A stretch of 64,000 nt of DNA, taken from NCBI GenBank assembly GCA_947625225.1, contig CANQNQ010000006.1:1-64000 (forward strand). The letters are read 5' to 3'. This stretch comes from an uncultured Clostridia bacterium. GTDB lineage: Bacteria; Bacillota; Clostridia; Christensenellales; CAG-917. Numbering within the stretch: position 1 is the first letter of the stretch; every line of letters starts with the position of its first letter. The translations under genes were made by a program, and so were the position numbers. The notes beneath the pieces are model-generated. The model was not told the origin of the DNA. It saw nothing but the letters and a program-made list of their open reading frames with translations, and did not search any database. Below, one piece after another: positions 42,673 to 54,178 of the stretch.

Positions 42673-42712
42673 GCGGTACGGCGGATATTGTCCGCCATAC
42701 CGCGTTTTTTTG
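42673..42712 (+). terminator. Strong intrinsic terminator after ftsZ
   Basis: GCGGTACGGCGGA pairs with TCCGCCATACCGC around TATTG and is followed by seven T. Confidence 0.92.
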
Positions 42713-42771
42713 TTGCATGCCCTCGACAGGGACGGAAAGTATGCGCGCCCGATATGTATTATCCTGCAGCA

Positions 42772-43530
42772 GTGAGCGTGTACATAGAGGTGGTGATCTT
42801 CAACAACTTCGCCGTGGACGCGCTGTTGATGTTGTCCACAGCTGCGCTCAAAAGGCGCAAGTGCAGGTGGTGGCGGGTTCTTATCGGCGCGGCGGTGGGC
42901 AGCGCGGTAGCTACTGCATATCCGCTGATGCCGCTCGGTTGGCAGATAGCCGTACGAGCGTTGCTTGCGCCCGTGCTTACCGCCATATTTTTCAGCGCGC
43001 AGGGCAGGGATAAGCGGCGCAAATTGCTCGACGAGATATCCGCTTTGACGGTGTTTATGCTGCTCACTGCGCTGCTTGGCGGCGCGGTGTACGGGCTGTC
43101 ACATCTTACGGGCGTGGACGTAAACGCGTATCCCGTCTTGGGGCTTGTCGCCGCGACGGCGTGCATGCTGCCAATATGCGCGCGCACAGTAGCACGCAAG
43201 CGCGCAAAGAGCGTAAAGACGTGCGAGGCTACGCTCAGTTGCGACGGGGACAGCGTTACGCTGGAGGCGCTTTGCGACAGCGGCAATACGCTTGTGGACG
43301 GCGTGAGCGGTTTGCCGGTGGTCATGTTGTCCCGATATGCGGAGGAGAAGTTGGGCAAGCGACCGCCGGAGGGAATGATAGAGGTGGAGACAGTGGGCGG
43401 CAAAAGCAGTTTTGTCATCATCGACTTGAAAAGCGTGGAAGTAAACGGCGTCAGCTACCGCGCGTTGGGCGCGCTGACGCACAGGGACATAGGCGACTAC
43501 GACGTGATACTGCAAGGTTCAATGTTTTAA
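42772..43530 (+). CDS. spoIIGA: SpoIIGA, pro-SigE processing protease
   Basis: A 252-residue protein; the B. subtilis form is about 309. N-terminal membrane helices (VYIEVVIFNNFAVDALLML onward, about five) are followed by an aspartic-protease-like domain with the catalytic CDSGNTLVD. It cleaves pro-SigE at the septum. GTG at 42772 aligns with the family start; ATG at 42754 would add six residues. Neither has a clear ribosome site, and a TATTAT lies nine bases before the GTG. sigE follows directly. Confidence 0.88.
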   Translation: MSVYIEVVIFNNFAVDALLMLSTAALKRRKCRWWRVLIGAAVGSAVATAYPLMPLGWQIAVRALLAPVLTAIFFSAQGRDKRRKLLDEISALTVFMLLTALLGGAVYGLSHLTGVDVNAYPVLGLVAATACMLPICARTVARKRAKSVKTCEATLSCDGDSVTLEALCDSGNTLVDGVSGLPVVMLSRYAEEKLGKRPPEGMIEVETVGGKSSFVIIDLKSVEVNGVSYRALGALTHRDIGDYDVILQGSMF

Positions 43531-48756: not shown

Positions 48757-49929
48757 ATGCAAACAAACACTGTTTCAAGGGCCGAAAGGGCGGTAAGACT
48801 GACGGGAGTCGCGCTTGTGCTGATACTGACCGCACTGTGCATTGGCGGCCTGATCTGTTGGAGTACAGTTACAAAAAACGGCATAATTGAGAATACATCT
48901 TTGCCGATTTCCGCGCAGTTTGGAACGCGTAGACTGCTTGCGGCAAGCGATGGCGGAGACGGCTACGTACACATCGGCGGCACGCCGATAGGCATTTCCA
49001 TATGCGCGGACGGACTTATAGTGATGGGCGAATGCGGAGTGCAGACAGAGGGCGGCGTAGTGCATCCGCTTGCGGGCGCAGACGTCAGAAAGGGAGATAT
49101 ACTCACCGCCGTCAACGGCACAAGGGTTAGGTCGGTGTACCAGCTTAAAGTGCTTGTTGACAACGGCGACGGCGAGGCGCTTACGCTCACTCTAAAGCGC
49201 GGCGGCGAGGCTTACGAGGCAAAGGCGACCCCCGCAACGGACATCAACGGCGGACTTAAAAAGCTTGGATTGATGCTCAAAGAGGACATAGGCGGCGTGG
49301 GAACGCTCACCTTTGTCACGGAGGGCGGCAGATACGCGGCGCTTGGGCACTATATCACGGACGCGGACACGGGGCTTGGCGGCGAGCTTGACAACGGCAA
49401 GATATATCCCACCGAGGTGGACGGCGTCATCAGGGGAGAGCGTGGCAAGGCAGGCGGACTCATCGCGGACGTAAACAGACTGTCCAAAAGCGTAGGCGAC
49501 ATATGCGCAAACACGCTTATAGGCCTTTACGGCAACTACAGCGCGCCTCCACAGGGGGAGATGTATCGCGTCGCGCGCAAGGGCGAGGCTAAGCCCGGCG
49601 CCGCCAAGCTGTATACAACAATAGACGGCGACGCGCCCGCATTTTACGACATAGAGATTGTCAAAGTGGTGTCCCAGAACGAGGTGGGCGAAAAGGGTAT
49701 GGTGATACTTGTGCGCGACAAGCAGCTGCTTGCAAAGACGGGCGGCATCGTGCAGGGCATGAGCGGCAGTCCCATCGTGCAGAACGGCTCGCTGATAGGC
49801 GCGGTGACCCACGTGTTTTTGCAGGATCCCACGCGCGGATATGCTGTCCACAGCAGATTTATGTATGATTACGCCGTGGGCGGAACCTCTTTTGCGCCCG
49901 AAAGCGTACAATACGGTGAGGCGGCATGA
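48757..49929 (+). CDS. spoIVB: SpoIVB, forespore signalling serine protease
   Basis: A 390-residue protease secreted from the forespore that triggers pro-SigK processing. N-terminal membrane anchor at about 15-38, a PDZ domain (about 75-145), then the S55 peptidase with the histidine in ALGHYITD and the serine in GMSGSPIVQNG. No Shine-Dalgarno precedes the ATG, so an unleadered forespore promoter is possible (CAATCT six bases upstream). In other spore formers spo0A follows directly. Confidence 0.95.
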   Translation: MQTNTVSRAERAVRLTGVALVLILTALCIGGLICWSTVTKNGIIENTSLPISAQFGTRRLLAASDGGDGYVHIGGTPIGISICADGLIVMGECGVQTEGGVVHPLAGADVRKGDILTAVNGTRVRSVYQLKVLVDNGDGEALTLTLKRGGEAYEAKATPATDINGGLKKLGLMLKEDIGGVGTLTFVTEGGRYAALGHYITDADTGLGGELDNGKIYPTEVDGVIRGERGKAGGLIADVNRLSKSVGDICANTLIGLYGNYSAPPQGEMYRVARKGEAKPGAAKLYTTIDGDAPAFYDIEIVKVVSQNEVGEKGMVILVRDKQLLAKTGGIVQGMSGSPIVQNGSLIGAVTHVFLQDPTRGYAVHSRFMYDYAVGGTSFAPESVQYGEAA

Positions 49930-50030
49930 CGGCTCGTTATGCGCCCGACTTTGTTGGGAGCGTGCGTATATCATATAGCGGAAGCGGCGCATATCGCGCC
50001 GCTTCCGTCTTTTATGAGGTAAGTTATGAA

Positions 50031-50390
50031 TCACATCGCCCTCAGCGTCAGCCTCTCCGCCGCGGTCAGCACAAATTGTTTGTTGGTGGGTTTGCCCTTA
50101 TTTTCGTCCAGCGTTTCGCCGAATTCGCGGTACAGCACGTCTATATTTCCCCTCAGCCACGCGGAGGATATGGCGTTCTGGATGTCCTTTTCCACGCTGG
50201 CGCAGTCCACGCCGAATTCGTCGGACAGCCTGCGGTATCCATTATATTTGAGGGGCAGTATATCGTCACTGTTCAGTGCGATCTCGATGAGACGGCTGAG
50301 CAGTTTGTAGCCTTTCAGATTGGGCTGAAAACCCAGCTCCAGCAGATATTGTTTCACTTTTATTTCGGCGTCTGTCACGCTTTGGAGCAT
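50031..50390 (-). CDS. Receiver-less Spo0A-like DNA-binding protein
   Basis: A 119-residue protein equivalent to the C-terminal domain of Spo0A, the sporulation master regulator. LLELGFQPNLKGYKLLSRLIEIAL, SAWLRGNIDVLYREFG and GKPTNKQFVLTAAERL match Spo0A-C throughout. No receiver domain is encoded: an in-frame stop lies seven codons before the ATG and the plus-strand SpoIIM-like gene is next. Compared with my memory of B. subtilis Spo0A, several Arg/His of the recognition helix are replaced (CASVEKDIQNAI). It sits where spo0A usually lies after spoIVB, but on the other strand. A GTG at 50378 is an alternative start. Confidence 0.85.
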   Translation of the reverse strand: MLQSVTDAEIKVKQYLLELGFQPNLKGYKLLSRLIEIALNSDDILPLKYNGYRRLSDEFGVDCASVEKDIQNAISSAWLRGNIDVLYREFGETLDENKGKPTNKQFVLTAAERLTLRAM

Positions 50391-50490
50391 AGCACAGCGG
50401 CGCGCGACTTATGATGGCTTAATGCCTCTGAAATTATGTAATTTTGCCCCATTTTGTCATACGCCGTCCGTGGGGAGCATAGGTTATGGC

Positions 50491-51084
50491 ATGTCATCGA
50501 CGCGTTCAAGAGCAATATTGTCATACCTCAAAACCTTTTTCGAAAGGAACAAAAAAGTCATCATAAGCACGGCGGTCATATTTGCCGTGGGCATAATACT
50601 CGGCGTGGTGCTGGCGTACAGGGCGGTGGACGGGCAGTTTGAGCGCGTGCCGCGCGTGGACGCGGAAGTGGGCACGGCAAAGGTGTTTTTCCTCTCCGTT
50701 CTGAGCCTTGCGGGCTGTTACGGCGTAATACTTATATCGGGCATAAACAACAAGACGGCGGTCATTGTGTGCGTGCCGTTTGTGGTGTTGGGCTTTGTGA
50801 CGGGCAGGTTTTCCACGGCTCTTATAATGCGCTACGAGGGATTCGGACTTATAAATCTGCTGTTTGTGTATCTGCCGTTTTTTATATGCACTTACGCGTT
50901 TATGCTCGTTGCGGGCGCAAGGGTGCTGGGCGCGGGCTGTTACGAGCGCTGCGAGGGCAGCTCGCTTAAGCCGTCCTTTGTCGCAGCGGTGAAACTGTTT
51001 TTGCTCAACTGCGCCTGCGCGCTTGTATTTATTGCCATAATAGGCAGCATATGCGGCGGGGCGATAGTGGTAAAACTATTCTGA
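50491..51084 (+). CDS. SpoIIM-like membrane protein
   Basis: A 197-residue protein with about five hydrophobic helices (near 22-42, 68-86, 92-110, 120-142, 170-195), the topology and length of SpoIIM, part of the SpoIIDMP engulfment complex. Similarity in sequence is weak, so the name is a candidate. Start at ATG 50491; upstream in-frame codons lack a ribosome site. CATAGGTTA just before the ATG resembles a SigE/SigK -10 box with ATA 16 bases upstream. Confidence 0.6.
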   Translation: MSSTRSRAILSYLKTFFERNKKVIISTAVIFAVGIILGVVLAYRAVDGQFERVPRVDAEVGTAKVFFLSVLSLAGCYGVILISGINNKTAVIVCVPFVVLGFVTGRFSTALIMRYEGFGLINLLFVYLPFFICTYAFMLVAGARVLGAGCYERCEGSSLKPSFVAAVKLFLLNCACALVFIAIIGSICGGAIVVKLF

Positions 51085-51171: not shown

Positions 51172-52353
51172 ATGACGCGCAAAAAATGTTTGATATGTAT
51201 ATTTGCCACAGCGTTTGCCATGCTGCTGTTCGCCATGCCCGCATTGGGCGCAGGGATAGCGCAGGCGGCGACGGACATCAAGGCGGTTGGCAAGGCGGCG
51301 TACCTTGTGGACTGCGCCACGGGCACGGTGATGTACTCCCGCAACGAAAACGAGAGGCTGCCCATCGCCAGCATGGTGAAGATAATGACCGCCACGCTGA
51401 CGCTGGAGGCGGTTGAGAAAGGTGAAGTATCCCTTGACGACGACGTCACGGTGTCGGAGGAAGCGGCTTCCATGGGCGGTTCGCAGGTGTTTTTGCAGAC
51501 GGGAGACGTGCACAAGCTGGACGATCTGCTTAAAACCGTTATCGTGGCGTCCGCCAACGACAGCTGCGTCGCGCTTGCGGAGCATATAGCGGGTAGCGTC
51601 AGCGCCTTTGTGGCGCGCATGAACGAACGCGCCGCTCAGCTTGGCATGAGCAACACTCGGTTCAAAAACTGCACGGGGCTTCCGGCGCCGGAGAGCTACT
51701 CCTGCGCCAAGGACGCGGCGACTATGTTCGCGCAGCTTATAAGGCACAAGCGCTACTTCGACCACGCCTCCGTGTGGCTTGAGGACTACCTGCATCCCGA
51801 CGGCAGAAAGACCACCATCACCAACACCAACAAGCTGGTGCGCTTCTACAACGGTTGCGACGGCGGCAAGACGGGCTTCACTTCGGAGGCTAAGTTCTGC
51901 CTGACCGCCACCGCAAAGCGCAACGGAATGAGGGTCATCGCCGTGCTTATAGGCGCGGACAGTTCCAAGGAGCGCAACGCCGCAGTCAGCGCCATGTTCG
52001 ACTACGCGTTTGCAAACTTCGGCAACGACGTGCTGCTTAAGGCGGGCAGCGAAATAGACAACTGCGTAGAGGTCGTGGGCGGCAAAACGCGCAGCATGCG
52101 CCTGACCGTCGCCGAGGACATAACGGCGTTCAGAAGCGCCGCCGAAAGCGCGGATTACCGGATAAAATTTGAGCTTCCGTCCCGCATAAAGGCTCCCGTA
52201 AAGGCGGGGGGCGAGGTGGGCAAGGCGTACCTTGTCAAAAACGGCGAGATATTGCTTGAAAAACCCGTCGTTGCCATGGAGGACGTCGCGAGGCGCAACC
52301 TGTTTGACGCAATCGGCGAGATAGGCAGGCATTGGACGGGCAGCAAGGATTGA
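51172..52353 (+). CDS. dacF: D-alanyl-D-alanine carboxypeptidase, DacF type
   Basis: A 393-residue low-molecular-weight PBP. Signal peptide at 1-32, catalytic SMVK, SAND (SxN motif) and KTG in GGKTGFTSEAK; a beta-rich C-terminal domain follows from about 285. It trims stem peptides in the periplasm-equivalent space, in spores affecting cortex cross-linking. GAGG precedes the ATG. Confidence 0.92.
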   Translation: MTRKKCLICIFATAFAMLLFAMPALGAGIAQAATDIKAVGKAAYLVDCATGTVMYSRNENERLPIASMVKIMTATLTLEAVEKGEVSLDDDVTVSEEAASMGGSQVFLQTGDVHKLDDLLKTVIVASANDSCVALAEHIAGSVSAFVARMNERAAQLGMSNTRFKNCTGLPAPESYSCAKDAATMFAQLIRHKRYFDHASVWLEDYLHPDGRKTTITNTNKLVRFYNGCDGGKTGFTSEAKFCLTATAKRNGMRVIAVLIGADSSKERNAAVSAMFDYAFANFGNDVLLKAGSEIDNCVEVVGGKTRSMRLTVAEDITAFRSAAESADYRIKFELPSRIKAPVKAGGEVGKAYLVKNGEILLEKPVVAMEDVARRNLFDAIGEIGRHWTGSKD

Positions 52354-52515: not shown

Positions 52516-53436
52516 ATGGCGGATCTTACGATCGAAACAATTGAAAACATGGACGCACAGCCCTCCGAGCAGGGCGATTTGAACGTTCAGCCCCTCGGCG
52601 ACGAGGCGGAGACCTACGTTGCGGATGGGGATATAGACGCGGGAGATCTGTTTATAGAGGACAAGACCATCACCTATCATATCGAGAACTTCGACGGCCC
52701 CATAGACCTGCTTTACACGCTGATTAAGGACGCAAAGATAGACATAGAGGACATCTTCATTTCGGAGGTCACAAGCCAATATGTGGAGATAGTCAAAAAC
52801 ACGCCCAAAGACAGCATCGACTACGAGTACGCGGGCGAGTTTATGGTGATGGCGGCGGAGCTTGTGTACTTCAAATCCATCCGCACGCTGCCCAGCGACG
52901 ACGATGAGGATTACGACGAGGACAGCCCCGAGTACGAGCGCCAGCAATTTATAAACAAGATAAAGGAATACGCGCTGCTGAAAGAGGAGAGCGAAAAGCT
53001 GAGAGGCCTTGAGACCATCAACCGCTTCTACCGCATGCCCGTGTACACCGACAAGGACTACAGGGTGGCGCTGGTCAACTTCTCGCTGCCCAAGCTGGTG
53101 GAGGCGTTTGCCAAGGTGCTTGCCAACGCCGACAGGCGCGAGCAGGAGATAATCCCCAAAAAAGTGGTCAAGGACAGGTTTTCCGTGCATGAGCAGATGG
53201 AGCGCATAGTCGTCATGCTTGGCGAACGCCGCAAGCTGCTGTTTACGGATCTGTTTGAGCCGGACTACGACAAGTCGGACATCGTGACCACCTTCCTCGC
53301 CGTGCTGGAGCTTATGAAATACGGCAGACTGCGCGCCGAGCAGGAAGAGGTGTTTGGCATCATCTGGTTGTTTATCGTCGAGGAGCAGGAGGGTCTGCCC
53401 ATAGAGTTTGAGGAGGGTGACGATGGAAAATATTGA
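52516..53436 (+). CDS. scpA: Segregation and condensation protein ScpA
   Basis: A 306-residue kleisin that links the heads of the SMC dimer. The family start ITYHIENFDGPIDLLYTLI lies at about 52, preceded by an acidic extension of about 50 residues not usual in ScpA. The C-terminal winged-helix part is FLAVLELMKYGRLRAEQEE. Ribosome site is weak. scpB overlaps by 14 bases. Confidence 0.94.
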   Translation: MADLTIETIENMDAQPSEQGDLNVQPLGDEAETYVADGDIDAGDLFIEDKTITYHIENFDGPIDLLYTLIKDAKIDIEDIFISEVTSQYVEIVKNTPKDSIDYEYAGEFMVMAAELVYFKSIRTLPSDDDEDYDEDSPEYERQQFINKIKEYALLKEESEKLRGLETINRFYRMPVYTDKDYRVALVNFSLPKLVEAFAKVLANADRREQEIIPKKVVKDRFSVHEQMERIVVMLGERRKLLFTDLFEPDYDKSDIVTTFLAVLELMKYGRLRAEQEEVFGIIWLFIVEEQEGLPIEFEEGDDGKY

Positions 53437-54178
53437 GAACGTTGTGGAGGCTATCATCTTTTCGAGCGGCACTCCCATTCAAAAATCCGATATTGTGGAA
53501 AAGGTGCCGGAGCTCACCACGCAAAAGCTGAACGGCATCATCAAAAACCTGCAAAAGCGCTACTGTGACGACTGCGGCATTCTGTTGCTTGAATTCAACG
53601 GCAAGCTGCAATTTTCCTCCAATCCCAAATACGGCGACGCGGTGGCGGACGTGCTGACTCCGCTCAAAGAGAAGGAGCTTACAAGGACTTTGCTTGAAGT
53701 GCTTGCCACAATTGCCTACAAACAGCCCATCACGCGCCTTGAGATAGACGATATGCGCGGCGGCACCAATTCGGAGTACGCCATATCCGGTCTGCTCCGC
53801 GCAGGACTGATAGAGGCGGTGGGCAGGAAGGACACCGTCGGCAGACCTCTGCTGTACGGCACCACGGACGGTTTTTTGAAGAAATTCCAGCTGAGAGACA
53901 TTGATTCCTTGCCCGACTACGCCGAAGTGCTGGACAAGCTGAAACTTATCAACACGGAGTTCAGCGGCGAATCGCTGTTCCACAACCGCTCCATCCTCGA
54001 CGGCGAGGAGACCGAAAGTTCGCTTGTCATCGGCGGCGAATCCATCCCCGTGGGGAACGGGCAGAGCGAGGAGGAAGCGGCGGCGGACAACGAGGCGGCA
54101 AAGACGGAGGACGACGACATATTCTCCGACGATATCCCGGACTTCCTTGTCGGCAAGGATTTCGACGTTTTCGATTGA
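53423..54178 (+). CDS. scpB: Segregation and condensation protein ScpB
   Basis: A 251-residue partner of ScpA with two winged-helix domains (ENVVEAIIFSSGTPI ... LATIAYKQPITRLEID ... GRPLLYGTTDGFL). From about 200 the protein is an acidic disordered tail ending DFDVFD. GAGGAGGGTG inside the end of scpA precedes the ATG at 53423. Confidence 0.95.
   Translation: MENIENVVEAIIFSSGTPIQKSDIVEKVPELTTQKLNGIIKNLQKRYCDDCGILLLEFNGKLQFSSNPKYGDAVADVLTPLKEKELTRTLLEVLATIAYKQPITRLEIDDMRGGTNSEYAISGLLRAGLIEAVGRKDTVGRPLLYGTTDGFLKKFQLRDIDSLPDYAEVLDKLKLINTEFSGESLFHNRSILDGEETESSLVIGGESIPVGNGQSEEEAAADNEAAKTEDDDIFSDDIPDFLVGKDFDVFD

Follow-up and report, generated by a model that had tools for sequence, protein, structure and literature searches.

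A lone Spo0A_C gene at the spoIVB locus

The window analysed here is the whole 64,000-nt stretch of contig CANQNQ010000006.1 (GCA_947625225.1) from an uncultured Clostridia bacterium. Adjoining spoIVB, on the opposite strand, is a listed open reading frame of 119 aa (SPOAC; Table 1) that encodes the C-terminal effector domain of Spo0A by itself, and in both its content and its placement the gene is as the preliminary description of this DNA had claimed. The Pfam Spo0A_C profile is covered over its full length (positions 1–104 of 104; E 9.9e-21) with 74.2 bits against a Pfam cut-off of 25 bits, and no match to Response_reg was found in a Pfam scan of this ORF. The Spo0A equivalog model TIGR02875 aligns to SPOAC by its C-terminal 113 positions only (profile 146–258 of 262), giving 64.7 bits, below the curated whole-protein cut-off of 200 bits. 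Sequence comparison gives two Spo0A effector domains, 1lq1 and 1fc3, as the solved relatives of SPOAC, and an AlphaFold model (pLDDT 92.5) has 1lq1 as its best PDB match (TM 0.81/0.90); the modelled fold is the Spo0A-C fold.

Table 1. Features of the spoIVB–SPOAC locus (coordinates are those of the window).
Feature	Position	Strand	Evidence
spoIVB, classical upstream neighbour of spo0A	48757..49929	+	Peptidase_S55 217 bits; TIGR02860 287 bits
Terminator-like hairpin between convergent spoIVB and SPOAC	49978..50008	+	1 found, 0.9 expected by shuffling
SPOAC, lone Spo0A_C effector domain	50031..50390	-	PF08769; 29-row family alignment; AlphaFold model; 1lq1 match
Extended -10 like element TGCTATGCT, 7 nt before GTG start	50386..50394	-	TGnTATnnT conserved in genus alignment
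Tandem 0A-box-like site TGACAAA-N3-GGGCAAA, 10 bp period, putative operator	50443..50459	-	At about -80; present in most of genus
Sigma-E-like promoter GTCATACG-N14-CATAGGTT of divergent membrane gene, putative	50456..50485	+	Sequence, picked by eye; first element conserved
Divergent small membrane protein gene, conserved-block member	50491..51084	+	Syntenic in relatives
dacF-like D-Ala-D-Ala carboxypeptidase gene, conserved-block member	51172..52353	+	Peptidase_S11 234 bits; synteny
scpA and scpB, end of conserved block	52516..54178	+	Named from sequence and synteny

The gene order spoIVB-SPOAC-(membrane gene)-dacF-scpA-scpB is kept among the relatives, the named members of which are likewise uncultured Clostridia (such as Candidatus Limadaptatus, Ca. 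Faecicola and Ca. Alloclostridium). Going by these names, the order is taken to be Christensenellales of GTDB. Within the genus of the window SPOAC is inverted relative to spoIVB; several further genera and families have the two genes co-directional, with SPOAC a few to some hundred bp after spoIVB, and a few families have SPOAC next to dacF or at some other place not adjacent to spoIVB (L044, L062, L063 and L065). Upstream of SPOAC in the window there are ∼110 bp to the divergent membrane gene, the ORF of which opens at 50422 and the product of which had no match in the Pfam scan. Such gaps are mostly too short to accommodate a receiver. Further lone Spo0A_C copies lie off the spoIVB locus (L064, L185, L190, L191, L205 and L206), and one genome (G049) has two adjacent, very divergent lone Spo0A_C genes (L060, 4704–5624).

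A family sample of 36 genomes was drawn from 60 relatives searched together with the genome of the window itself. The lone domain is present in 25 of these, 19 of which also encode a complete Spo0A, and it mostly lies within the spoIVB-dacF-scpAB block. There is no case in the family of SPOAC without SpoIVB, and the two genomes with SpoIVB and no SPOAC each have it at a contig end; Spo0A, SPOAC and SpoIVB are all missing from three genomes (95%, 95% and 76% complete) that belong to a single genus. This co-occurrence is partly simple linkage, the two genes being neighbours. The coding sequence is under purifying selection, with a median pairwise dN/dS of ∼0.10 and a closest pair that differs by 11 synonymous and no nonsynonymous substitutions.

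The assembly (1.52 Mb, 98% complete) carries a second Spo0A_C gene on contig C1, and this one does encode a receiver. Its product scores 85 bits for Response_reg, 140 bits for Spo0A_C and 274 bits for TIGR02875 (cut-off 200), and retains the acidic pair, the phospho-acceptor Asp and the Lys; a receiver with a phospho-acceptor Asp is thus a property of this complete Spo0A and not of SPOAC. The genome search thereby bears out the proposal that the true Spo0A lies elsewhere, and lends support to the associated reading of SPOAC as a competitor or specialised regulator, one of two options that had been offered. The other, that sporulation entry is independent of phosphorylation, is unsupported for the organism as a whole, since a complete Spo0A with its phosphorylation residues is also encoded and entry need not bypass them. 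A sporulation programme is likely in the genus because it carries SpoIIE, SpoIIGA (window ∼42778–43341), SpoIIAA-like proteins and SigK.

Receiver decay, recognition helix and orthology

Full-length Spo0A next to spoIVB is common in the class sample examined, and within the order the spoIVB-linked copies form a series in receiver score, from 80 bits (L003, intact) through 52 bits (L118) and a sub-threshold 26 bits (L121) to no match (L069). In two further copies, L186 and L189, the phospho-acceptor Asp (D56; residue numbering throughout is that of Bacillus subtilis Spo0A) is replaced by Glu and the acidic pair is lost, the L186 receiver still scoring 50 bits; both lie near scpAB, with no spoIVB in the stretch read. 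Judged by sequence, the linked spo0A thus shows a graded decay of the receiver in the order, from intact through D56 to Glu and undetectable to absent, and the receivers of L186 and L189 are possibly locked. These two genes (L186, 4121–4867 in G118; L189, 3709–4467 in G178) belong to single-contig genomes of 2.6–3.0 Mb in the same order, each of which has a second Spo0A elsewhere (L187, L188) that carries a receiver.

The recognition helix had been described as altered, and it is: the window protein has S211, K214, Q217 and N218 where B. subtilis has R211, R214, R217 and H218, so that it departs from the canonical pattern (R/K211, E213, R214, R217 and H218) at every position other than E213. 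The new residues are almost fixed among the lone domains (n = 30), with K214 in 30/30, Q217 in 29/30 and N218 in 28/30, and E213 retained in 28/30; A257 is changed to L, I or V in 24/30. The linked copies that still have a receiver keep R214 (7/7), R217 (7/7) and H218 (6/7). In these sequences the refixing of the helix is limited to the lone domains and coincident with the final loss of the receiver. The 29-row family alignment shows in addition a strongly conserved surface, FGET(L/I)DxxKGKPTNKQF.

A second full-length Spo0A, away from spoIVB, was found in several families of the class sample, and in class-level genomes (L168–L174) there is such an unlinked, full-length lineage with K211 and F161. 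In a tree of the C-terminal domain, a branch with 98/100 support splits the unlinked lineage from a group of B. subtilis Spo0A, the linked clostridial proteins and SPOAC; on the unlinked side fall the complete Spo0A of the window genome and nearly all receiver-bearing unlinked copies of the order. The lone domains carry the linked signature (K/R244 in 29/30, G245 in 30/30) and are without the hallmarks F161 and K211, which are present in 44/44 members of the unlinked lineage together with an acidic residue at 245. Approximately unbiased (AU) tests on these short sequences (trees of 122, 95 and 49 rows) do not reject a grouping of SPOAC with the unlinked lineage (p 0.20–0.28). The proposed orthology of SPOAC to the linked spo0A rests on its slot, the signature and the intermediates taken together, and SPOAC most likely belongs to the spoIVB-linked lineage. 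It probably represents the original spo0A gene after decay in place, a point absent from the preliminary description.

Upstream elements and candidate operator sites

The GTG at 50378 is probably the conserved start of SPOAC in the genus alignment, giving a product of ∼115 aa, and the ATG at 50390 probably falls within the conserved extended -10 element. The position of TGCTATGCT only 7 nt ahead of this codon suggests a leaderless mRNA. At spoIIGA (window ∼42700–42760; relatives L249–L262) a -10-like element likewise directly precedes a GTG start that is conserved in the genus, and leaderless transcripts may be common for its sporulation genes.

Further upstream is a tandem site, TGACAAA-N3-nGnCAAA, which repeats with a period of 10 bp, as tandem 0A boxes do, and to which SPOAC, the complete Spo0A or both may bind. 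Compared with the 0A-box core TGTCGAA, which is contacted at G2, C4 and G5 (PMC3485338), the first box of the SPOAC site keeps G2 and C4 and has A for G5. The site overlaps the putative sigma-E-like promoter of the divergent gene, whose first element, GTCATACG, is conserved in the genus alignment. Upstream alignments of other genera did not show the tandem site to be conserved there. Across the genome, the motif with at most one mismatch was matched 34 times, compared with 17 for a reversed control, while canonical tandem TGNCGAA boxes were not enriched (9 vs 21 for the control). The four exact copies are all in or near intergenic stretches, by rex, guaB/PI-PLC-like and MATE genes and SPOAC, and not at known sporulation genes, so the site is not assigned to a protein. 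No clean tandem box shared between spoIIGA, spoIIE and the complete spo0A emerged from the sequences preceding these genes; spoIIAA was left out of this comparison because its alignments had taken a wrong ORF at several loci. Three boxes of this type stand in a row upstream of the MATE transporter gene (G000:C20:8408–8434), and the other exact sites are at the rex-like gene (G000:C2:53337; L264) and between guaB and the PI-PLC-like gene (G000:C12:27878; L266). On the strength of these matches the MATE, rex-like and guaB/PI-PLC-like genes are possible regulon members.

Interpretation and relation to known systems

Somewhat favoured over the alternatives considered together is the reading that SPOAC is an ancestral spo0A, decayed in place, that now acts as a phosphorylation-independent DNA-binding regulator beside a receiver-bearing paralogue. 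According to this model, the order of uncultured Clostridia would have possessed two ancient Spo0A copies, of which the one not linked to spoIVB retained its receiver and is presumably where phosphorylation signals entry into sporulation. The other, occupying the ancestral slot, would have shed its receiver stepwise, after which its recognition helix and C-terminal helix would have been refixed to a new set of conserved residues. Freed of receiver inhibition, the effector domain would be active once made, its control would move to its own transcription, and it could bind tandem sites of the 0A type, its specificity or affinity being altered, and so tune sporulation-related genes. The isolated effector domain of Spo0A is known to bind its targets without phosphorylation, inhibition by the receiver being absent (PMC3485338), and for this reason a phosphorylation-independent, expression-controlled regulator is the default reading. 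Also in favour of the model are the complete Spo0A in the same genome, the number of family genomes with SPOAC and its conserved block, the linked position and signature, the graded receiver decay, the helix refixed only in lone domains, the low dN/dS and the upstream tandem site with 0A-box geometry. The evolutionary part of the explanation has good support, except that the orthology is not settled by AU tests alone; DNA binding by SPOAC, its constitutive activity, targets, timing and function, and the passing of the master role to the paralogue are what we infer beyond it. The broader proposition of a master-switch swap throughout the order, in which a receiver-stripped spo0A has its own DNA code and an ancient paralogue serves as the signal-responsive master, is given slightly less than an even chance.

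Several points count against the model: the AU tests do not reject a grouping of SPOAC with the unlinked lineage, the tandem site is not conserved in other genera, and its exact genome copies are not at known sporulation genes. Two features could further be read against a regulator of changed specificity. With three basic residues and R211 gone, DNA binding may be weakened and not redirected, and the frequent L, I or V at 257 recalls, by analogy, the A257V substitution of B. subtilis, which blocks sporulation and not abrB repression (PMC9195935). The main rival explanation, doubtful but the most serious of those considered, builds on both: SPOAC would antagonise the complete Spo0A or partner it. 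As a weakened DNA binder it would enter mixed dimers at tandem 0A boxes, or compete for such boxes, and the sporulation threshold would rise. The replacement of R211, R214, R217 and H218, the changes at A257 in 24 of the 30 lone domains, given the sporulation defect of A257V (PMC9195935), and the conserved surface would all suit such a role, whereas the retention of E213 and of the helix-turn-helix fold would not, and the near-invariance of the new residues is more in keeping with a refixed DNA code than with simple loss.

An alternative origin of SPOAC, in which the effector domain of the complete, unlinked Spo0A was copied into the spoIVB locus and displaced the ancestral gene, is compatible with the AU tests but improbable, given that SPOAC occupies the linked slot, bears K/R244-G245 and not F161 or K211, and belongs with a linked lineage that holds intermediates with decaying receivers. 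Descent from a domesticated phage gene is more improbable by far: effector-only Spo0A homologues have been described in gut phages (PMC10294663), but the inheritance of SPOAC is vertical and syntenic, no relative was found in viral contigs, and the best-matching entry of the phage collection is a bacterial contig that carries the spoIVB-SPOAC-dacF-scpAB block. A pseudogene, or a receiver hidden by a frameshift or assembly error, for which the missing receiver is itself the sole argument, has virtually no standing and was ruled out, as the same open lone-domain frame recurs in ∼30 independent assemblies, the gene has the low dN/dS and 11:0 substitution pattern given above, and the space to the divergent gene is insufficient; the refutation that had been proposed, a receiver regained once a frameshift is corrected, fails on these grounds.

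Like Spo0A of B. subtilis and C. difficile, SPOAC has the slot after spoIVB, the Spo0A_C fold, the linked signature and, with E213, the greater part of the domain core; unlike them, it has no receiver and has R211, R214, R217, H218 and A257 replaced, and unlike Spo0A as defined by TIGR02875 it scores far under the equivalog cut-off. It therefore fails the tests for Spo0A that rely on receiver, score and recognition helix, yet is a Spo0A_C domain protein. Clostridium thermocellum resembles the window genome in having two Spo0A proteins, a main one (Clo1313_1409) and a second (Clo1313_0637; Cthe_3087; PMC4890492, PMC3804516), but both of these are full length and the main one is more B. subtilis-like. 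We infer that the complete Spo0A of the window genome belongs with the second C. thermocellum type, to which the unlinked class lineage (L168–L174) is probably comparable. A literature search that covered a minority of the subscription journals turned up no account of a receiver-less Spo0A that is chromosomal and syntenic, has a refixed recognition helix and coexists with a complete paralogue.

Presence of the Spo0A_C domain or of spo0A is used to recognise Spo0A and to predict sporulation (PMC6136694; PMC11536998), and a gene can be misnamed Spo0A when annotation relies on nothing but its C-terminal domain. Spo0A is also regarded as one universal master regulator under phosphorylation control; here the classical slot holds a receiver-less relative with a changed recognition helix, and the complete Spo0A is of a second lineage. 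If the functional reading is true, a two-component master regulator could be replaced by a paralogue and then recycled, and the copies with intact, Asp to Glu, decayed and absent receivers would offer natural intermediates for studying the loss of phosphorylation control.

The gut-phage Spo0A homologues (PMC10294663) share with SPOAC an effector domain without a receiver; SPOAC differs from them in its chromosomal location, its synteny, its vertical inheritance and a helix motif of its own. Carriage of SPOAC by phage was rejected, no relative having been found in viral contigs: the human-faecal record MT835614.1 (L294), deposited as ‘Bacteriophage sp.’, contains spoIVB, SPOAC, dacF, scpA and scpB and is a bacterial contig, and hence an independent sighting of the same locus. 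Two other ‘Bacteriophage sp.’ records, MT835718.1 (L295) and MT835504.1 (L296), likewise carry chromosomal sporulation genes and contain full-length Spo0A, in one of them beside spoIVB.
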